The notes beneath the pieces were generated by a model, which searched no databases, was not told where the DNA came from, and saw only the letters and a program-made list of their open reading frames with translations. From NCBI GenBank assembly GCA_033558025.1, contig JAUCEF010000009.1:744001-808000 (forward strand): a stretch of 64,000 nt of DNA, given 5' to 3'. The DNA comes from Phytophthora sp. 'mugwort' (Eukaryota > Oomycota > Peronosporomycetes > Peronosporales > Peronosporaceae). Within the stretch, counting starts at the first letter, position 1; every line of letters begins with the position of its first letter. The position numbers and the translations under genes were made by a program. Below, piece after piece: positions 5,259-58,704 of the stretch.

Positions 5259-5720
5259 TCACCGTTCCACTGATCGCCCGAATGTTTCTGCTAAGATACC
5301 TATGCCTGAAATACTGCATTGCGTCTTGTATCTTGCCATTAACGCATCGTGCTGAGTGACCGGATAGGAACGCCTCGAAGAAGATGAGACTCCGATACCA
5401 CAATTGTAGTTATCTCGTAAAGAAAACGTGCTGTATGTTTTAATCCTGTAGTGGCGCGAAGGCAACAGTGGTGTAACCGTATTCTGGACCAGTTGGATAA
5501 GTGCAATCAACCTGTCACCGCATGGCTGTAGGTCAAACACAGTAACCACTGACTGGGTTGGGTCAACGATTACTACGCACCAATGATTATCGTTGACGTT
5601 GACAGCCATCAATAGCGCTGGCGAATTATCCTGGTCCTTGGCGTGGATGAAAGCCGTCTGACTTCGAGCAAACGCGATATCCGTTATATGAAGGCGTAGC
5701 TCATTCGATGGTATTGCCAC
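5259..5720 (-). pseudogene. Ulp1-like (C48) cysteine peptidase domain of a mobile element
   Basis: About 150 residues with the Ulp1/SENP peptidase signature: NVNDNHWCVVIVD (catalytic His), VFDLQ (Asp), and DNYNCGIGV (Cys). The oxyanion-hole Gln expected before the Cys region appears replaced (SLRDNYNCG). Upstream frames on the same strand carry HTH-type DNA-binding sequence, so this is probably the C-terminal part of a transposon protein rather than a SUMO protease of the host. The reading frame breaks both before and after it, so it is a relic. Confidence 0.55.
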
Positions 5721-5860
5721 GGCAGGGTGTTCTTTGCGGTACTATCTTATAAGACCGAGAAGAGTTATATCCGAACAAGCTTCGTCAATTTGCTCCTTGC
5801 CGCAGAACGAAACCAGAAACCAATCTAAATGCAGCACTCACAGTCTAAGAAGATGAAGAC

Positions 5861-7106
5861 TTAATCCTCGTGCGGCATACGGGGTTCAGCATTAAAACCA
5901 ATTTCAGGAGAAAATTTGGCGTGTTTCCACTGGGCCACCCAGTGTAGAGCGACATCTAGGTCATCGTAACGATCAAGTAGTCTGTGCCACTTAATCATTG
6001 CATCGATCGTTTCAACGCAATATGTCGTACCACACACGGTGGCGACAACGTTTTTGCGGCCAATGGGGATTCCACGCGTCTTCTGCCAGTTGAATCTGAA
6101 AGCATCAACTGTCTTTCCAATTGACTTCAGTACAGCTGAAGCCAAAACGTCCAAAACATTCTTCGGAAGGAGTTGCGCGCTTGTCAGTTTTGCAAGCACA
6201 CGAAATACTGGTGCGCTTCATTTCGCACACTTTCAGCTTACGAATGCGCGAAGCATACTCCGCGTAAGGTGCACCACCACGGACAGCATCAACAAGCAGT
6301 CGTAGTGATAACAGACGAGGCCTCTTTCCGATCACAACTGCCTGATTCGGTATTTCTGTGTTTTGTCCTTCACGCTGACCACATTGGACATCTTCAGATG
6401 CAATTTCCACCTCGAAATCATGATTTCCACTAGTCGAGTTCGGCGGTAAATCCACAGAAATGCACACTTCTCCAGCTATCGATTCCTCTTCAAACTCAGC
6501 GTTTTCGCTAGTCGCAACCGCGGATAATTCCACTAGACCAGATTCAGCTGCGATTTCCGAGAACGACGTTGCTTGACAGTGATCCGGTGCAGCTAATTCT
6601 GTGTCCGCAGCGTGCTGCACTCCAGGGATATCTCTAGCCCAAACATTCTCCAAAAACCGTCTTATCGAGCCTTGTTGTATTTTGTCCTTGAGCAACGCAA
6701 ATTTGTTGATATTTGTGCAGCCGTAACTCAGGAGTATTTGGTGAGTGACAATCCCACCATCGCGTCTGCACTTATCGTAATAATCTAACACGCGCTGTTC
6801 GTACGGCTTCTCCTTTCGCCTACGGCCACCACCCTTTCCCCTATCACGCCCGCTGATTTGACTTGAGTCTTTAATGTGGTTGAACTGCGGGTCTGACTAT
6901 TTATCAGTCCAGCCAAGTAGAGTCACTGTGTTTACCTCTAGCTCGTTAGAAGCTTGTGTTAGAGTCCACCCCCCTTTGTGCTTTTGCCAGATTCTCAACT
7001 TCTTGCGCAGTGACGTTTGGACACAAGGAGGAAAGGTAGCGTAGCGGTGGAGGTGCGTGTTGTGGTAATGGTGGTGTGGGGGGAGCTTATAGTTGATGGC
7101 CCTCAT
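5861..7106 (-). pseudogene. HTH/CENP-B-like DNA-binding part of the Ulp1-bearing element
   Basis: The minus strand holds three pieces in successive frames. 6897-7106 has a helix-turn-helix-like stretch (LRIWQKHKGGWTLTQAS.. NTVTLLGW). 6105-6791 begins with DYYDKCRRDGGIVTHQILL, like the CENP-B-type second HTH of pogo-class proteins. 5861-6199 is a third piece that continues toward the Ulp1-like domain. Between them is acidic, low-complexity sequence. No DDE catalytic block is visible where a transposase would have one. I read it as one decayed transposon protein of order HTH, HTH, linker, Ulp1 peptidase. The exact family is not known to me. Confidence 0.42.
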
Positions 7107-41322: not shown

Positions 41323-42260
41323 ATGGCGCGCACAAAGAAGACTGCCCAGATTTTGCGTTTCTTGCTGGATAAGTCGTGTGTGGAGAAGCGACCCCCAGAG
41401 GTAGTCAACTTGGCCTATCGCCTCCCAGAGTCAGTGGTGATTGAAGCACTCGCTCTTATCCAGCAAAGATGCCCTTTCGGAGACGCAATGGATCTCACAA
41501 CGCCACTAGATGCTACCGACTAGTGTTGGGTCGTTAGAATAGACGGAGCAGGAGATGTCACGCAAAGACAACTCATGGCGATGCAGTACATATGGAGTTT
41601 GAATGATATATGTATTAAAGGAAACCTGTGTTACTCATGGTTGATGAGCGACGTAGATGGACAGTCTCCATTTGAAGATGTAGGAACGCTGGCAAAGCGA
41701 TTATATGATGCGTTGCCCTTTGAGCGTCTCCCAGGGTTTGGTGACGGCATTGATCTCGATTGAACTCATCTCTTTGCGCTCGAGAGGGCGCTTGGTACCA
41801 CGACAATTTTATCATGCTTTATGATTGCTCTGGCGGACAAGTACCCGAGCGTGACGATAACTTTCTGCCGGCGTTGCGCACACCTTCACCGAAGAAATTC
41901 AAGCACCTTCTGCCGTCGACGGTGAGCTTGCTGTCCGCGGCGACCAAGGACCTGATTTTTATGCCCCTGAATGTCAATGACACGCACTGGATGTGGATTT
42001 TGGTGCATCGACCAAGATGTACTATCTACTTCTACGATAGCTTTGATAAGCGGGTAAACCAGGACCTGCTGGCCGTTTTGGCTGCTGAGCTCAAGACATT
42101 GAGTCTTTCCGAGTCTTATCAAATAGGCGCCGCCCACAGCCCCATTCAGAAAGATGGTGACAATTGTGGGCTTTTCATTTGCCTGCAAAGCCCACAATTG
42201 TCACCGTTCTTCCTTGGGGAAGAAAGGACGCCAAACAAACAGGCAAATGAAAAGCGGTAG
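41323..42260 (+). pseudogene. Ulp1-like (C48) peptidase of a mobile element, second copy
   Basis: Plus-strand pieces at 41323-41523, 41575-41763 and 41760-42260. The last has the peptidase domain: PLNVNDTHWMWIL (His), IYFYDSFDK (Asp), and PIQKDGDNCGLFIC (oxyanion Gln and catalytic Cys). All four active-site residues are present, unlike the copy at 5.3 kb. Right after NCGLFIC the sequence turns into an inverted copy of itself, so the C-terminus is lost. Upstream pieces are separated by stops. Probably transposon-derived, as for the copy at 5.3 kb. Confidence 0.5.
42156..42255. repeat. Nested inverted duplications at the end of the Ulp1-like frame
   Basis: 42156-42174 and 42187-42205 are exact 19-bp inverted copies (GGTGACAATTGTGGGCTTT and its complement). 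In addition 42170-42185 and 42240-42255 are exact 16-bp inverted copies. The two pairs overlap in the coding sequence of the catalytic Cys motif. Confidence 0.9.
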
Positions 42261-48382: not shown

Positions 48383-49440
48383 CTACCATGGCAACGCGGG
48401 TACAACCGTTATTGCACGTCCGATGTCGGCGTAGCGCACCAGCGCATTCCCGGACGCTTTCATTATCTTCCTACTAACTATGAGATCACGGCCTTCTCCG
48501 TCTATACAATTCGAGACTCGAAGTGCATGCAGGACATGCGGGCAGGTCCCATAACCGAACCCATACGGACAACACCGCAGACGCAGGTTAACCGGCCATT
48601 CTGTACTAGACCGATGTTGGACCTCCATGTTCGCGTAATTAAAACCCATTTGAGCGGATACCGCAACTCCAACCTCATTGCGCTAATTAGGCGCTACAAC
48701 ATCTTGCTCCGCTGGGTATGAAAGTACATTTAATATCGCGTCACTCGGCAATGTTGTGTAGACAGTGTCACCCCACACCTGAAGTAGGTTTTCACGTGCT
48801 AGCTCCCGTGCGCACCTGATAATCGGCGGCGAAGGTACAATTGCGTTCAAAACAGGTCGGGCCAAGGACGTATCGTGACGGCAGCATTCAAACAATTCAC
48901 GCAGTAGCGTACCCATTTTTAGACACCGATGCATGGTGTAATCTCTCTTTTATAGTACTGTTAAATGTCTCGGCCGGGTTGTTGGTACTGGTCTGACCAA
49001 TGGGTGTAGTAAACATTTGCCAGTTGAAAAAAACGCCCGAACAGCCACTGACGACACATATACTGAGCAAACTGACAAGACCAGGAGTAGTCCACCACTT
49101 CTGCAAGATTTGCCGACGCAGCTGGAAAAAAACTCTGCTCAGATCGTGCAAAGTGTAAGTCGTACAGTCCCCAGACTATCACAAATGATAATTGTGCTGG
49201 ATAACCCTTCAATACCTTGTAGACATTTTCATCACATGAAATTTGGTTTTATTAAGAACTGGAAGCTTGAATTGTGTCCGAATAATATTCTCTAAAAGCT
49301 GTACTTCTAATTTCCATTCACAGCGCGTTGTACTGGGCTGGTCTGCATCTCCCATTGCATATCGTACCATCAATTCCTTTTTAGTTATCCACCAATACAT
49401 TCAACACAATAACATCAATACTGACTCAAAAATCGGTTGA
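48383..49440 (-). pseudogene. MULE 2 transposase with SWIM zinc finger, frameshifted
   Basis: Blocks in MULE order on the minus strand: VRYAMGDADQPSTTRCEW (49300-49380, catalytic Asp in GDAD); FHVMKM then GLYDLHFARSEQSFFPAA (49110-49180); NWQMFTTPIGQTSTNNPAE and TFNSTIKERL (48930-49030, the TNNP.E.FN block with the catalytic Glu); LKMGTLLRELFECC (48885-48930); SWIM zinc finger RLRCCPYGFGYGTCPHVLHA (48520-48585). Frames change at least three times. Confidence 0.7.
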
Positions 49441-49880
49441 GTTTCTTAGGATACGACAAACAAGGCGACCAAGTAAAAACCTCGTGGGCGATCGGAGATC
49501 CCAAGTACTACCGTAGGATACGTCAGGTGATTTAACTTGTAGGTTGCATGACTATGCAGTATAAATTCTTCATGTGGCAGCTGCATCCGCATCATCATCG
49601 CCTTTGTTATTAGTCCCACTACAAATGGGCGGTCGTTAGATCCATACCCCTAACAGAGGCATCCCATCAACACCATGCTCCCAGCTGAACGTGAAAGCCT
49701 GCGAGGCAACTCATTTCCATTGTAGGCTCGGGCACGAACCCAATTCGCAATATTTGCAGCGATCATTAAGCGTAGAAACTGACAAAGTTTTGAACTGTCA
49801 TGCGGCTAGGTAGCTGATCCAACGAGACGACAAATTTTCTTGACATTGCATGTCGGATTCGCATTGGTTTCATCGAGCTC

Positions 49881-49970
49881 CTACTCGCCTGTACTCCGTT
49901 CTACTCGTCTGTACTCCGTTCTACTCGCTTGTACACCGTTCTACTTGCCGGTACTCAGTTGTACTCATCA
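49881..49970. repeat. 20-bp tandem array, right end of MULE 2 (inverted)
   Basis: Units CTACTCGCCTGTACTCCGTT at 49881, 49901, 49921 and 49941, plus a partial fifth; exact 20-bp period. The complement reads GAGTACAGGCGAGTAG, as in the left array. Confidence 0.88.
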
Positions 49971-52900
49971 AATCTCACATATCGTACGCAATTTTTCTGT
50001 CAATGTATTACCTTTCTCCGAAAGGATCTAAGCTCCGTTTTTGTGGTATGGTGCTGGATTTATGGCGTTATTCAGACCTGCACAGGTATTTCTAAAAATA
50101 ATCTATTTTTAGTTGCAACCCTCCGCTCCGTTTTCTGTGACAAGACATAGATAACAAAGTCAGCTAACAGGGCACAAGATGTTCGGAGGTCTTTTTATAT
50201 AATACTATAAAAATTGCTCTGAATGCAGAAAGTGAGCAGAAATTGAGATTTGCAGACCCGCGCATTTCATTGGATACCAACCATGCACAGACCAACAGAT
50301 GCAAAAAACAGACGCTGCATTTCCATCGCGCCCCACAAACTCGTCATGCGAGCTGTGGCTCAGTGTACGATTGACAACCCATTACTTTAGCTTGTTTGAG
50401 GGGAGTGGCGTTGCAAGTGTCGTTGTAAGAGGTGCCGTCTACCTACGATGGTCCATATCTGACCTAGAGGGGATAATGCTCCGTTCGCAGGCACACCAGT
50501 ATAGCTAACCAGAAAGCTTTTGAAAGAGGAGGTAAATGTTCCGTAACATTGCGACTTGGGAACAAAGTATTTTGGTTATCACTACGTCTTAAGTATGAAG
50601 CCATGTCTAGCGGAGAGAAAGTGGTTCTCGCGGCCAAGAAGACGACTACTACGAATCCTAGTACGGCGAGAGTGAAGTGGTCGAGGCACTTGTGACGATT
50701 ACTATTGCTGGACGGGTTTCAGCGAATCTCGAGGTTGATCCGGTTGGCCCGACGATGACGGTACCTAGCTTGGCTGTGCGCACGTCTTTCCTTTGCTCGT
50801 TCGCCGCGGCGTATGTACTCCTTCAGCGTCATTCTGTAGAAATCGGCATCTTGAGCGAAGGGAGGCATCAACGACGTGTGGTAGTTCCTCAAGGCGCAAG
50901 TTATTTTCGCGATCACGTCGAACTTGTCGTGACTCCATCAAAATGTCTCTGACCTGGCCGCCCTCAGCTTTTTCAAGCGGTCGAACTACATCTCGACAAC
51001 AATGCGGTCAGAAGAAACGCGTCTGCTACACTGAATTTCACCGTCGGTAAGCTTGCCATTCGATGTTTGAGCTTTAACTGAATTGTTCTGATGGTCTGAT
51101 CAGACCCTTGGTTTTCCATGTGTACGAAGATAGCCCAGCTTCGCTCGAATTATTCGTGGCCTTTACCGTTTTCTTCGATTCCGAGCTTTCCGGTGGCGCC
51201 ATTCTTGGCTAGAACTTCCGTGTGAAGCTATTTCCGCTCCGCGAAGATGGTATTGTCGTCCGTGCATCCTGCATAGTGCACTGACAGCGACACGTATACG
51301 CCTGGAAGCGCGACAGACGCTTCAAGTTTTAGAACATAAAGATGATGCTGACCTGAATATACGTTTGTGTTGCTTGCACAAATCTTCCACTCGGGCGGTA
51401 AGCCTCTAGGAACTTCACGTCTGTATTGTAGATGCGTATCGGTAGTTCGTGAACAGTTGAGAGTGTTGATGCTGTGTTGTCGTTAAGACCGGCTGGCTGA
51501 AGTGATCCATGAGTGACTTTTCGATCACTTCATCGTCATTTCGCGAATGAAGACGTCTTCCGTCCAAAACCATTGGCATACATGTCCCACTGGGAGTACC
51601 GTTCAGGATGTTCAATGTCAAGAAAAAGGCATCACGCGCGGCACATTTAAATCTCCGACCTCGCCCAACATTCCTGTACGACGAGTTTGCTGGCTGAACC
51701 AGCGGATACAGTGTCTTGAGCTCAGCGTGGGAGGCGTTGGATATGATGCAGATCTCCGATCTTTGATCGGCGAGGAAACAATCGTATATCGGGCTGTCGG
51801 AGTCGATTTTGTCTTCAACCGGTGCACGTACTCGTCATCAAATCTCATTCGCCGATTCTTGCAGTCTCTGCTCCCGACGCGGCATGGAGTTTTACATCTG
51901 GGCCAGGTCCATGGCGGAGCTGATCAACTGGGAATTGCCTCTTGGCAGCGAATTTGAATACGCTACTCAGTTGGCTTATAAATCGAATTGAAGCGCGATT
52001 AAATGCCGTTTTCTTCGATAACTAATAAATGTCGGGTCCATACATGGAGTTGCTGTAAATACTTTCTAGAAGACTGGCCACTACAGCCAAACTGGTATAT
52101 ATTCAGTATTTCCATGTTAAGCTTACCGCCAGCCAATTGCGGTATACTTGGCAGGATGGACATATGAAGTTGTTAGCGAATAGAGATAGTGACACCAATG
52201 TGCCTCATTGAAAAATGAATGAATTGCAGCGTCCCGGTTTTTATCATCGGTGCCAGAATATCTTACGCAGGGGTCACTTCTTCTCCAAATCAAATGCGTT
52301 AGTCTGGTCGTGCCCTACAGAAAGGAGATAGCCATGCCCAACTAAAGTTGAAGCTGACATGGCTACTTTCTGTTGTGATTATGCGTTTACTGTACATGTG
52401 TTACTACTGCCGGTAGTAATTTACTTCCAGTGGCCAGCTAAAGTGCTCTCTGTCACTGTTGACACCAATCCTTCCACATGCGTTTAACTCCGGTGTCTCC
52501 ATTGAACCTTGGATATCGATTTCATGCAAGTGTCCACCTTAATAGCCCTTGTTTGTCCAACTCGAAAAATTGGCATAATGCTGAACACTTCGCGACCACT
52601 ACACTACACATTGCCAATTAGTTACTTCATGCCATATCCACACTAAAGCCACACCAACTCAAATCCATTCATCGTGCTTTATGCTCGACTTCGCGCTTAA
52701 GAAAGCCGACAACGCGCCAAACCTCGGTCGAGGACTCGCTCTACCACCAGCGCCTTGGCCAATCGCGTGCCAGATAGGAACGTGCACCTTTGCATATTTC
52801 TGCTTGGTGTCAAACACGCGCATGTTGAAGCAAAAACACGATCCTTGCGCCAAGTTTTCGCGGGAGATTTTAAACTCAAACGCTTAGCGGGCGGCAAAAG

Positions 52901-53101
52901 CCCGCCAACGCACGCACTCGCGCCCAAACACCCAGCTTCGGCTCGAAAGCGCGCCATATTTTCAGTAGGAAACACCGGAATGACCTGCATGTCCGCCGCC
53001 CCGCGTAAAGAAGTCGCGTGGACGTTGATATCTATGACTTGGTGACCAACCACGCCCTGCCCTCTTCACCAGAATCTTCAGGTCCATATCTCCTGCCAAT
53101 C
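49971..53101. other. Gene-poor interval with one possible transposase end
   Basis: The minus frame 50719-50950 (FDVIAKITCALRNYHT ... KERRAHSQARYRHRR) resembles the C-terminal end of a DDE transposase ("CALHNFH"-type block followed by a basic tail), though the basic tail also recalls a bZIP; confidence is low. Other frames (51415-51960, 52697-53053) show no known domain. The last few hundred bases probably hold the 5' region of the ribonucleotide reductase gene. Confidence 0.3.
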
Positions 53102-53116
53102 TCACTTTCCATTCGG
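53102..53116 (+). promoter_or_regulatory. Oomycete initiator of the NrdD-NrdG gene
   Basis: TCACTTTCCATTCGG fits the oomycete initiator consensus YCAYTYYNNWYTTNV at 14 of 15 positions and lies 51 bp before the ATG at 53167. It shows that this bacterial-type gene has a host-type promoter. Confidence 0.55.
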
Positions 53117-53166: not shown

Positions 53167-55701
53167 ATGGCCCCATCCCGTTCCATCATCGAAGACAACT
53201 GCACCGAGGTGAACCCCGCCAACGACGTCAAAGCCGCCGGTCTGCCCACCCTCAGCAAGTCCTCGGCCCTCGCTACGGCTGTGTCCCCAGTCATTGACGA
53301 GTACCTGGACAAGATCACGTGGAAGGCCGCCGAGAACTCGAACGTGACGTTCTCGCTGCAGGGTCTGAGTCAGCATATCGCGACCAGCGTTGTCGAGGAG
53401 TACTGGCTGCATAAGCTCTACTCGGAGAAGATTCGTGCGTATGTTAAGGAGAACCGCTTCCACATCCATGATCTAGGCTATCTGAGCGCTTATTGTTCGG
53501 GCTGGAGCACGGAGGACATCTTGATCCACGGCTTCGGTGGCGTACCCAACAAACTCCAATGCCGTCCGCCCAAACACTTTAACACGGCGCTGAACCAGAT
53601 TGTCAACTTCCTTTTTACCCTTCAGGGTGAAATGGCCGGTGCTCAAGCTCTGTCGAACCTGGACACGTACATCGCTCCCTTCATCCGTTTGGACGAACTG
53701 AGCTACACTGACGTCTTCAAGTTCATCCAGTCGTTCGTGTACTCGCTGAACGTGCCGACTCGTAGTGGGTTCCAGGCTCCGTTCACCAACATCTCGCTTG
53801 ACTTGGTGTGCTCCAGCGTTCTAGCAGAGCAGCCCGTGATCATTGGAGGCAAGCAACACCCGACGTGGGTGTACGGCGACTTCCAGGAGGAGATCGACAT
53901 GTTCAACAAGGCGTTCGCCGAGGTTATGATCCAGGGCGACGGCAATGGATCAATCTTCAGCTTCCCCATTCCGACCTACAATTTGTCCAAGGAATTCGAC
54001 TGGGAGTCACCTCGTTTCAAGCCCATGTGGGAGATGACGGCCAAGTACGGCGTGCCCTACTTCGCCAACTTCATCAACTCGGACTTGAACCCCGCAGACT
54101 TTCGATCCATGTGCTGCCGTCTGCGTCTCGATACTCGCAAGCTTCACACCCGTGCCGGTGGCATTTTTGGTGCTACGCCTCTAACTGGTTCGCTTGGTGT
54201 TGTGACACTTAACTTACCGAACCTCGCGATGCGTTCGAAGACGGTGCCTCAGTTCTTTGAGATGATCAAGGAGACGGTCGCTGTAGCTAAGGAATCGCTT
54301 GAGATTAAGCGTAAAGTCATCGAGTCCAACATGGAGCTGTACCCCTACACGCGTTTCTACTTGAAGAGCGTCTACCAGCGTGCCAAGAGCTACTGGGCCA
54401 ACCATTTCTCCACCATTGGTGTCATTGGCATGAACGAGGCCTGCTCCATCTTGCTGGGTCGTGGCATTTACCACAACAAGGACTTTGCTGGCAGTGTGTT
54501 GCAGTTCATTAAGAACGAACTGCAGGAGATTCAGCTTGAGACCAAACACCTCTACAACCTGGAGGCTACACCGGCTGAATCGACATGTTATAAGCTTGCC
54601 AAGATCGACCACGAGCTGTTCCCGGACGTCAAGCTGCCGGAATTCTACACGAACTCCACGATGCTGCCGGTGGACTCGACGGACGACCTGTTTGAGGCAC
54701 TGACCCACCAGGAATCGCTCCAGACCGAGTACACAGGCGGCACCGTGTTCCACGCGTTCCTGGGCGAGCGTCTGTCGAGTTGGACCCAAGCTCGGGATCT
54801 TGTCCGGGCAATCACCACGACGTACCGAATCCCGTACGTGACGTTGACTCCGACGTTTAGTATCTGTCGTACACACGGTTACCTGGCTGGCGAGCACTTC
54901 GAGTGTCCTCAATGTGGAGAGAAAGCGCTAGTTTACTCGCGTATCGTCGGCTACTTCCGCCCCGTGTCGGACTGGAACGCTGGTAAGAAGGTCGAGTTCA
55001 GCATGCGTAAAATCTACACTGCGATCGAAAAAGAGCCCATTGATTTCCAGATTGGCGGCTTCACCAAGACCACGTACACGGATTTCCCGGGCAAACCTGT
55101 CGCCTCGATCCTGTTCACCAAGGGCTGCAATCTCAAGTGCGGTTGGTGCCACAACAGCGATCTTGTGAACGAAAAGCCCGAAAATTTGGACCCACACGCG
55201 ATTCTCGACTATGTGGCTTCCACGGAGCATAGGAGTCTGGTCATTTGTGGTGGTGAACCCACTATCCAGTCTGGTTTGATGCCGTTCCTGCGCCGTGCTA
55301 AGGAGCTTGGACTCACGGTCAAGCTCGACTCAAACGGAAGTAATCCTAATGTCCTCCAGAAGGTTTTCGACGAGCAGCTTGTCGACTTTGTCGCGATGGA
55401 CGTCAAGGCGGACCCCGAGCGCTACGCTGAGGTCGCCGGCAAGGCTCTACGCCCCAAACTACTGAAGAAATCGATCGAGATCATCAAGAAGTCTGGTGTC
55501 GAGCATGAATTCCGTACGACGGTGGTGCCGGGCCTGGTCGACATTGAGGACATTGCGGTGATTAAGGGGCTGATCGGTGAGACCCCCAAGCTTCAGCGTT
55601 TCCGCGCGTCGGAGACTTGCATCGACGCCCAGTTCCGTAAGCATCAAGAGCACAGCGAGGAGGAGTTCGAGGAGATTGTCAAGACTGCTAAGGAACTTTA
55701 A
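53167..55701 (+). CDS. nrdD: Class III (anaerobic) ribonucleotide reductase fused to its radical-SAM activase (NrdD-NrdG)
   Basis: 844 residues, intronless, from the ATG at 53167 (context AACATGGCC). Residues ~40-620 are an anaerobic ribonucleoside-triphosphate reductase: NVTFSLQGL, HIHDLGYLSAYCSGW (active-site Cys 110), NFLFTLQGEMAGAQA, a second Cys pair (RSMCCRL, 316-317), a zinc site (C567, C580, C583: ICRTHG ... FECPQCG) and the glycyl-radical loop SRIVGYFRPVSDW with Gly 595. Residues ~630-844 are the activase: GGFTKTTYTDFPGK, then the [4Fe-4S] motif CNLKCGWC (C654, C658, C661) and GGEPT (695-699) for SAM binding. No N-terminal ATP-cone is visible. In prokaryotes the two are separate proteins. 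The activase makes the glycyl radical that reduces NTPs to dNTPs without oxygen. Bacterial or archaeal origin by transfer, and the benefit in anoxic soil, are inferences. Confidence 0.95.
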   Translation: MAPSRSIIEDNCTEVNPANDVKAAGLPTLSKSSALATAVSPVIDEYLDKITWKAAENSNVTFSLQGLSQHIATSVVEEYWLHKLYSEKIRAYVKENRFHIHDLGYLSAYCSGWSTEDILIHGFGGVPNKLQCRPPKHFNTALNQIVNFLFTLQGEMAGAQALSNLDTYIAPFIRLDELSYTDVFKFIQSFVYSLNVPTRSGFQAPFTNISLDLVCSSVLAEQPVIIGGKQHPTWVYGDFQEEIDMFNKAFAEVMIQGDGNGSIFSFPIPTYNLSKEFDWESPRFKPMWEMTAKYGVPYFANFINSDLNPADFRSMCCRLRLDTRKLHTRAGGIFGATPLTGSLGVVTLNLPNLAMRSKTVPQFFEMIKETVAVAKESLEIKRKVIESNMELYPYTRFYLKSVYQRAKSYWANHFSTIGVIGMNEACSILLGRGIYHNKDFAGSVLQFIKNELQEIQLETKHLYNLEATPAESTCYKLAKIDHELFPDVKLPEFYTNSTMLPVDSTDDLFEALTHQESLQTEYTGGTVFHAFLGERLSSWTQARDLVRAITTTYRIPYVTLTPTFSICRTHGYLAGEHFECPQCGEKALVYSRIVGYFRPVSDWNAGKKVEFSMRKIYTAIEKEPIDFQIGGFTKTTYTDFPGKPVASILFTKGCNLKCGWCHNSDLVNEKPENLDPHAILDYVASTEHRSLVICGGEPTIQSGLMPFLRRAKELGLTVKLDSNGSNPNVLQKVFDEQLVDFVAMDVKADPERYAEVAGKALRPKLLKKSIEIIKKSGVEHEFRTTVVPGLVDIEDIAVIKGLIGETPKLQRFRASETCIDAQFRKHQEHSEEEFEEIVKTAKEL

Positions 55702-56669
55702 GTACAAGAACTGATACGGGATGACAACTTAACTAACTAACAAATTACAGTCCGCTTGTCCATGGATGACATTTACCTTTAACTATTTTTTCAGACAACA
55801 ATAATTTAGCAGTAGGGAGCTGTCAGTTTGGTTGGGGAATCGGATTCAATAAAAAAAATGAATTTATCAGATTTAAATGTCAAAATGCGTTTCTAACAAT
55901 TGGAACATCAAGTTGAGGTTCATGATACACTACGCTACCTACGAATGCGTACAGACGAGATTCTTACTCGTTAGTGCTAGCAGATAACGAATGCGAGATG
56001 ACCCAGGCGGGGCACAATGCCGTCAAATCTTGCGGCCCACATGTTGGTCTCTTGGTTAACTGCATGGGTGCTTGGTGCGGCTCTTGGCGCTCTCGGCCAG
56101 CAGTAGTTAATGGGGGGGAGGCCTGGTGGCCGCCTCGATGCACAACACCATGCTCCTATCCGTGATCCTCAACTGCGCAGCATCTTCTTGTCGGTGTGCA
56201 GCATCAGGATGAACTTGTTGAGATGGCACTCCTGGTACGCAAGTGATAATATCTGATCGTATTTAACCGCTTTTGTCGACGGGTTTTTCTGTCATCTATA
56301 TAGGCGCTAACTCAGTGTAAGTATCGAAGGTTACTGGGGTACAAAGTGACTCAATATGTACCCACTCAAGAGTCGCAAACGCATCTTCATAGACTACTGT
56401 ACCCACCCGTTGTTGAACTTTAATTGGGTACCCAAGCCCCACCCGCCCAGCCTACACACTCAGTTCGGGTACCCACGCATCCACTCAGGGCTAAAAACTT
56501 ATTAACTGCAGTTAATAATATCGCTCTATTAATAACAAGCTTAATCGGGCTTCCCCCCGCATTTGGAAACCAATTAGGGTACCCACACCCACCCATGAGG
56601 CACACAGGTACCGGTGGGTAGGTAGGGTGCCCAATTTAGGGTGCCCATTTGCGAGCTCTGACCCCAGTA
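55702..56669. other. Intergenic, GGTACCC-rich
   Basis: No gene. 56340-56640 has many copies of GTACCCA(C) / GGGTACC in both orientations (for example at 56358, 56400, 56427, 56469, 56578). Ends at the TA target site of mariner B. Confidence 0.4.
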
Positions 56670-58241
56670 CAGTGCTGGCCATATGTATATGCGTGATAGT
56701 ATTTTGCGGTTAAATACGTCAATTCACTACGAATAGCGCTAAAAACACACAGATTTGCTATTGAAGCAACGGGCTATCCGAGCATATATTTTTTTCTCGA
56801 GACGGCCAGTGGTCGTGGAGATACACTAGTGACCATCACTCTGAGGCTGGTAAAAAGTATATGCACACACCAAAGTGTCGTCGTTGTGGTCCTTGTACGT
56901 TGAATTGGAGGCCCCTTAGTACTTTGTTTTCTTACTGTTGCCCTCTCCGACGGCCCCAACACGGTCAGGCATTGAGTCAAGCAGTTTTTGAAGCTTTACA
57001 GCTTCAGGCGTCCCCATGCGCGGCGAACGGCTATTTTCAGCACTTCATCGGTGGTGAACGGCTTACCACCGCAATAAACATCTCGCACAAGCATGCCCCA
57101 AATGTTTTCGATAGGATTCAAGTCTGGAGATAGCGCTGGCCACTCTAAACCGTGACATTAAGGTCCTCAAGAAAGCTCTTCGTGCGGTTAGAGGAGTGAA
57201 TGCTTGCGTTATCCTGTTGGAAGACGTAACTTCCGTCGTGGAATAGCCTCACCAAACGGCAGTAAGTAGCTAGTCAGCGTTTCCTGGTAGTCCAGGGAAT
57301 TTTGGCGCCTTGAAAGGAACGCAATGTGGTCGTGCACTTCGACGAAAAGCCGCCTCAAATCATTACCGACCTACCACGATTCTGCCGACTGAAAAATGCC
57401 TCCTTCTCAGTTCCCAGGTCGTGCCAGTAGTATTGCATTCCGTCCGGACCGTCTAGATTAAGCTTCTTCTCATCCGAGAAGATGACACGATCCCAATCGG
57501 TCCGGGCGCGGATCATAGCCTTTGGCAACTTTCGCCTTGCCAGCTTGTGGCGTGCCTTTAGCATTGGCGTGCGCTGACGCTTTTACGAACCCCATATGAG
57601 GGGTTCGCTGTATCACGCGCCGTACAGTACGCGCAGACACGCTAAGCCGCAGAGAATCTTTAACACCACTAGACGACCTCCAGCCTTTTTGGCTGCAAGA
57701 ATGATTTGATGTTGAGTTCTTGCCGACGCCTTGCGTGGCATTCCGGGCTGTTTAGCCTTCTTCCGCCCATCTCTAGTCTTCCACACGTTGCCTACACCCG
57801 TCGCCGACAAGCCCAAGGTGCTTTCCAATTGCGACAAACGTCCAGCCAGCCTATCGCAGGCCGATGACGGTCCCCTTTTCGACGTTAGTAAACTCCACAG
57901 CTTTAGGCGTCGCTTGTGATCCTTGTAGAAAGTTTTAAAGTGGCTGCTGCGCACCAACAGCACGGCGAGATGCTGGGTTTTCTAATGTAGAGAGTGGTAG
58001 TTTTCAGAACGCTCTAGAACGCCCGCAATGGCGGGAAAAGTGAACGCGCATATACTTTTGACCAGCCTCAGAGTGATGGTCACTAGTGTATCTCCACGAC
58101 CACTGGTCGTCTCGAGAAAAAAATATATGCTCGGATAGCCCGTTGCTTCAATAGCAAATCTGTGCGTTTTTAGCGTTATTCGTAGTGAATTGACGTATTT
58201 AACATCAAAATACTATTACGGTATACATATGGCCAGCACTG
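56670..58241 (-). mobile_element. Tc1/mariner element B with ~195-bp inverted repeats
   Basis: The ends 56670-56864 and ~58048-58241 are inverted repeats starting CAGTGCTGGCC, flanked by TA (56668-56669 and 58242-58243). Length is 1,572 bp. The terminal sequence differs from mariner A except for CAGT, so it is a separate family with the same long-TIR design. It lies 500 bp upstream of the first P450 start codon. Confidence 0.85.
56913..57963 (-). pseudogene. Mariner B transposase, decayed
   Basis: The minus strand carries an N-terminal HTH region (RLSQLESTLGLSATGVGNVW, RDGRKKAKQPGMPRK) at 57730-57900, the first Asp in WDRVIFSDEKKLNLDGPDGM (57440-57500), and PALSPDLNPIENIWGML (third acidic Glu, about 57100-57150). 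A C-terminal LLDSMPDRVGAV lies near 56960-56990. The second Asp block is obscured by frame changes. Dead copy. Confidence 0.72.
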
Positions 58242-58243
58242 TA

Positions 58244-58521
58244 GAAACATTTGAAACTTTTTCGGTGGTAGCTCCGAGTAAGTTTTCTGCCAGCAGGCGT
58301 GTGTACCACCGAATAAGTTTCGTAGCCAGCTGTGTCAAAGACTCTTTTGACTCAAGAGACATTAAGTATCGATTCGTACCGTATTGGCAAGCGTTCGAAG
58401 GCTGCAGTTGCCAATACTTCTTATCGGCGTCTTCGCCATCGAACTCGACCACCTCGCCCTCCTGTGCTGGGGGTTCACTGGCAGTGGACCACTGTACAAT
58501 CCAATTATACGGCCAAGGCAA
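58244..58521 (-). other. Open frame cut by mariner B
   Basis: A minus frame (PWPYNWIVQWSTASEPP ... LTQLATKLIRWYTRLLA) with gene-like composition but no ATG start ends exactly where mariner B begins. I do not recognise the protein. It may be an exon of a gene inactivated by the insertion, or chance. Confidence 0.25.
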
Positions 58522-58704
58522 CTTGATGAGACCTCAGCCTCGGTGAGCACTCACGTCTTTGACGCCAGCATGTCTCGTCCATCTGGCCCCGGTAAACTCG
58601 ATTGCAGTGCAGCACATGTTCTGCTCCGACGTGTCTGTCGTGGTCCCTTGACCCTCGAGCAGCTCACAACGGAACCGACTGTCTCGTCCGCACGACTGTT
58701 GCAG

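Follow-up and report, generated by a model that had tools for sequence, protein, structure and literature searches.

Fused genes for class III ribonucleotide reductase (NrdD) and its radical-SAM activase (NrdG) have been described in eukaryotes. The parts of the 2010 paper that we draw on report such NrdDG genes in Phytophthora ramorum, P. sojae and P. capsici and in fungi, with Fusarium/Gibberella/Nectria and S. japonicus as the fungal hosts, and propose one bacterial transfer with later spread (PMC3019208). A 2015 paper is cited beside it as prior literature (PMC4390871, in part). In the portion of another study used here, NRDD is listed as one of the Pfam domains that its comparison finds in anaerobic gut fungi alone (PMC6712302). 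The gene analyzed here, from Phytophthora sp. 'mugwort', fits the 2010 description: it is the same fusion in the same genus, and nothing material differs from the account in those parts of PMC3019208. The finding of a fused NrdDG is thus correct and already known. We add its genome context, separate trees of each half, a placement of the oomycete branch, an active-site comparison and the lack of a pyruvate formate-lyase match in the genome. We are confident that this is a native Phytophthora gene, of putative bacterial descent, encoding a class III (glycyl-radical) ribonucleoside-triphosphate reductase that is C-terminally fused to its own NrdG activase and predicted to work by the mechanism proposed below.

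The window is the whole stretch of 64,000 nucleotides that was analyzed; its features are listed in the table. The original prediction of an intact, intronless frame holds, with no intron seen. Pfam and NCBIfam profiles place NrdD and then NrdG in this single frame, the arrangement of the eukaryotic fusion, as had been predicted. Pfam NRDD aligns over its full length (profile positions 1–562 of 562, E 3.5e-179), and the NCBIfam NrdD models PRK08270 and TIGR02487 score 852.7 and 489.8 bits against cut-offs of 548 and 326.35. Together with a C-terminal radical glycine and zinc-site residues, this identifies the first half as class III NrdD. The PRK08270 match starts at profile position 97 of 684, and Pfam and NCBIfam scans of the protein found no ATP-cone, which makes dATP feedback by way of such a domain unlikely; in contrast, many of the relatives among the matches listed carry one (PF03477). 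In the second half, Pfam Radical_SAM matches residues 648–792 (E 1.8e-17) and the NrdG2 activase model TIGR02495 scores 171.5 bits (curated cut-off 131.15), which with the three CxxxCxxC cysteines bears out the predicted activase. The predicted structure (mean pLDDT 87.2, pTM 0.73) has NrdD and the pyruvate formate-lyase (PFL) activase as its fold matches in a structure search. The Escherichia coli PFL activase (3cb8) is a separate protein with PFL as its substrate, unlike the fused NrdG half.

Features of the NrdDG locus, in positions of the window.
Feature	Position	Strand	Basis
Initiator-like sequence TCACTTTCCATTCGG (weak)	53102..53116	+	Motif search; 51 bp from its end to the ATG
NrdDG gene (class III ribonucleotide reductase and radical-SAM activase), 844 aa	53167..55701	+	Single uninterrupted frame in the window translation, ATG at 53167, stop at 55701, zero internal stops
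NrdD domain, residues 56–617	53332..55017	+	Pfam/NCBIfam profiles; ATP-cone not found
Cys110, counterpart of active-site Cys125 of T. maritima NrdD	53494..53496	+	Alignment, published numbering; invariant in 12 rows
Met315-Cys316-Cys317, MCCR finger loop	54109..54117	+	Motif reading of translation
Glu466 (NLEATP), candidate active-site glutamate	54562..54564	+	Opposite Glu of T. maritima NIEQ in alignment
Cys567, His570, Cys580, Cys583, presumed zinc site	54865..54915	+	Translation and 12-row alignment
Gly595, glycyl radical site (RIVGYFRP)	54949..54951	+	Motif reading of translation
Linker, residues 618–628	55018..55050	+	Gap between Pfam/NCBIfam domain borders
NrdG2-type radical-SAM activase domain, residues 629–807	55051..55587	+	Domain profiles
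Cys654, Cys658, Cys661, CxxxCxxC cluster motif	55126..55149	+	Motif reading of translation
First cytochrome P450	58741..60408	+	Identity of 85–90% with proteins from several species of Phytophthora
Second cytochrome P450	60600..62351	+	P. idaei orthologue is numbered two away from NrdDG there

A search for protein relatives scored 8000 and listed 120, of which 66 look fused by motif pattern. Those with names come from Phytophthora, many ascomycetes, Brettanomyces and one Pleurotus, and one EukProt transcript (P0025) holds both halves in a single frame. The closest unfused prokaryote-type NrdD among the matches listed is 57–59% identical. The NrdG half searched alone gave four close relatives at 50–60% and then 116 at 39–48%, again among the matches listed. 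Seven fused metagenome proteins (P0065, P0066 and P0068–P0072) have no contiguous MCCR by motif pattern. Alignment of P0065 and P0071 puts a long insert exactly between the two finger-loop cysteines, and PF14890, which we take to be an intein family, matches P0066 and P0068–P0071; the insert in this group is probably an intein. Given bacterial rows as the outgroup, the seven proteins form the deepest branch of the fused group.

Bacteria and archaea carry the same two families as separate ORFs (Aquificales, Syntrophaceae, Gastranaerophilales and others). In the best 80 of at least 593 bacterial and archaeal loci, NrdD is 49–57% identical to NrdDG; 75 of the 80 have both NrdD and NrdG, on separate ORFs in 74. 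The one apparent fusion among the 75, in Anaeromyxobacter terrae (L133), was rejected as false because its radical loop (about 5450–5950) lies in a frame other than that of the preceding NrdD part. No sound fusion was therefore found in the 75 loci with both genes. nrdD and nrdG share a frame in 40 of these 75 and are one stop codon apart in 25, though these counts give no unbiased rate, since pairs in the same frame are favoured when loci are ranked by match. An origin from a giant virus or phage was also rejected, on the loci kept from three scans of viral contigs. There, the alignment query (A2) contributed the best 80 of its 297 relatives, the P0071 query found one locus on a 62-kb contig, and the P0064 query found no locus. 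All 81 loci have NrdD and 30 have an NrdG-like frame too, but none is fused.

The original prediction called for a phylogeny of each half. We used a quick FastTree of 182 rows, an NrdD tree of 64 of these, an NrdG tree of 76 rows and a joined tree of 63 rows, all unrooted and with bacterial rows picked by similarity; five bacterial rows of the joined tree had no pattern-detected radical loop and hence were not cut there. Fused proteins fall on one side of a branch supported at 100/99 (NrdD), 99/97 (NrdG) and 100/100 (joined), with bacterial rows, plus one phage row in the NrdD tree, on the other. In the NrdD tree, the fused group also takes in the NrdD-only rows P0052, P0057 and P0059. The window gene groups with the fungal fused genes, apart from the bacterial rows, and the agreement of the two halves in separate trees fits one fusion event. 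Where horizontal transfer plus fusion had been suggested, the fusion and its residence in an oomycete stand, and a bacterial origin fits both the identity of the closest unfused NrdD and the separation from bacterial and phage rows; the direction, with trees unrooted, is taken from the account in PMC3019208. It is plausible that bacterial genes were fused and transferred: a bacterial nrdD-nrdG pair would have been joined, probably once, and would then have spread among eukaryotes.

The oomycete group is supported at 100/99 (NrdD), 100/98 (NrdG) and 100/100 (joined); it has 11 rows in the NrdD tree, of which the window gene and P0001 are the ones named as oomycete. Two members of the group, P0052 (NrdD) and P0241 (NrdG), are listed as separate proteins, each with a contig of 18016 bases, which may reflect two distinct genes, an intron or a broken frame. 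All three careful trees place the oomycete group outside a grouping of ascomycetes and Brettanomyces that is supported at 97/90, 99/92 and 98/79. The filamentous group includes six rows without a name (P0013, P0014, P0015, P0035, P0039 and P0047) and P0010, labelled Pleurotus ostreatoroseus. This basidiomycete-labelled NrdDG sits inside the ascomycete group in four trees, by either contamination or transfer. The Brettanomyces group includes two rows without a name (P0044 and P0049) and is not one clade in the NrdG tree.

These trees bear on whether the oomycete gene was derived from filamentous ascomycetes. Transfer between fungi and oomycetes is suggested in the parts of PMC3019208 used here, the matches listed contain many fused genes from Fusarium and its kin, and a tree with the oomycetes as sister to every ascomycete sampled could not be rejected (p-AU 0.348). 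Against such a source stands the position of the oomycete group in the three careful trees. For the joined tree, the test rejected a constraint uniting the oomycetes with the filamentous group but not Brettanomyces (p-AU 0.0315, the group having been picked with the tree already in view). We regard a filamentous ascomycete source as unlikely. The quick FastTree disagrees over Brettanomyces, which it puts beside the oomycete group with support 88, and this makes the placement outside the ascomycetes less firm. Our judgement is evenly balanced on the broader proposal that a single origin of the fusion gave rise to a non-bacterial lineage wider than the fungi and oomycetes of 2010, including several deep branches such as the insert-bearing metagenome proteins, with the oomycete gene as a branch of its own and not a gift of filamentous ascomycetes.

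Within the NrdD half, the predicted radical glycine and three zinc-site cysteines are present, and His570 is invariant alongside those cysteines in the 12-row alignment. T. maritima NrdD (4coi, 4u3e) is one of the closest known systems, and NrdDG resembles it in its double-cysteine motif, Tyr-Cys pair and aligned Glu. By alignment and published numbering, His99, His101 and Asp102 of NrdDG correspond to Tyr112, His114 and Asp115 of the T. maritima triphosphate site. The finger loops differ: SCCR in T. maritima, MCCR with a methionine in NrdDG. NrdD2-type (thioredoxin-capable) class III enzymes are defined, in the part of PMC4493059 cited here, by a third active-site Cys and an active-site Glu. 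The window gene has the third Cys in MCCR (Cys316 and Cys317); for the Glu, Glu466 is a candidate by its alignment with the T. maritima residue. Among the fused relatives in the matches listed, the motif pattern finds contiguous MCCR in 59 of 66 and NLEA(T/S)P in 65 of 66. Enzymes with an MCCR finger loop are thought to use formate or thioredoxin (PMC9669993, from section 9). Judged by its residues, the NrdDG active site resembles these enzymes, and Met315 keeps formate possible beside thioredoxin as the reductant.

In the mechanism that we propose, the 4Fe-4S cluster of the activase (C654/658/661) would cleave SAM and abstract hydrogen from Gly595, and the glycyl radical so formed would make a thiyl radical on the finger loop (C316/C317), which would reduce NTPs to dNTPs without oxygen, helped by Cys110 and probably by Glu466, with formate or thioredoxin as reductant. 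A genome search for pyruvate formate-lyase, a formate source, gave no match (its control matched in 3 of 14). Large and small subunit genes of a class I enzyme are also in the genome, and NrdDG, when expressed, may back up this oxygen-dependent enzyme where oxygen is short. The oxygen-independent dNTP supply that had been suggested would follow from the enzyme class. The oxygen sensitivity of class III enzymes counts against the explanation, Phytophthora being an aerobe. Further, P. infestans is reported, in the parts of PMC3019208 used here, to have no class III genes, so the gene would be dispensable in the genus. The same report would suit a relic no longer used and kept by chance, but this is very improbable given the intact frame and the catalytic residues, which are invariant in a 12-row alignment that includes the P. 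idaei protein.

NrdDG is a single-copy gene, at 797167–799698 of contig C9, in an assembly of 86,260,535 bases and 154 contigs. To its left, a dispersed repeat of ~1.9 kb (about 50147–52084; query 49200–53100) has copies on many contigs, mostly at 71–78% identity. To its right, an element of ~1.58 kb (about 56668–58243) has inverted ends of ~196 bp that are 95% alike; 984 bases of it match a copy on another contig at 87%, and further segments of the stretch 55750–58700 recur widely. Mobile elements had been claimed on both sides, and a flanking mariner had been named. Repeats with genomic copies do lie on both sides, but their identity as mariner is not established, with no transposase in the five ORFs put through a domain scan out of 27 listed flanking ORFs. 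Elsewhere in the window, an ORF at 41760–42260 has an Ulp1-type Peptidase_C48 domain, which is often met in transposons. An initiator-like sequence does lie upstream, where an oomycete-type initiator had been claimed, but it is weak evidence, as its core motif TCAYTYY occurs 36 times on the forward strand of the window.

The predicted P450 flank was confirmed, with two such genes to the right of NrdDG. The NrdDG–P450 linkage is kept in P. idaei, answering the proposed check of synteny in related oomycetes. There, NrdDG (PI124_g2531) is 93% identical to the window gene, and PI124_g2529, numbered two away, is a P450 that matches the second P450 of the window at 495 of 563 aligned positions (88%); both list the same 130,567-base longest contig. 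A second P. idaei name set has the same spacing (PI125_g6015 and PI125_g6017). Codon use of NrdDG correlates at 0.90 and 0.95 with the class I ribonucleotide reductase genes of the genome and at 0.86 and 0.93 with the two neighbouring P450 genes, and less with the window's ABC gene (0.72) and ankyrin gene (0.52); a control that compared the NrdDG reverse strand with the first P450 gave 0.52. Contamination from bacteria, or an insertion of bacterial DNA in very recent times, which the absence of an intron and an enzyme class described as mainly prokaryotic in the parts of PMC3019208 used here might suggest, can be dismissed almost with certainty given the single copy, the genomic copies of both flanking repeats, the host-like codon use, the P. 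idaei gene with the same P450 neighbour and the distance to unfused prokaryote-type NrdD among the matches and loci above, as the original prediction had held.

With both the fusion and its transfer in print since 2010, the present value lies in a wider tree, a view of the active site and a testable operon idea. That idea, from the parts of PMC3019208 used here, is that a bacterial operon becomes usable in a eukaryote once its two genes are joined. NrdDG would be a clear example of paired bacterial genes turned into a single eukaryotic gene. If active, it would allow an oomycete that is aerobic and plant-associated to go on producing DNA precursors when oxygen is absent.
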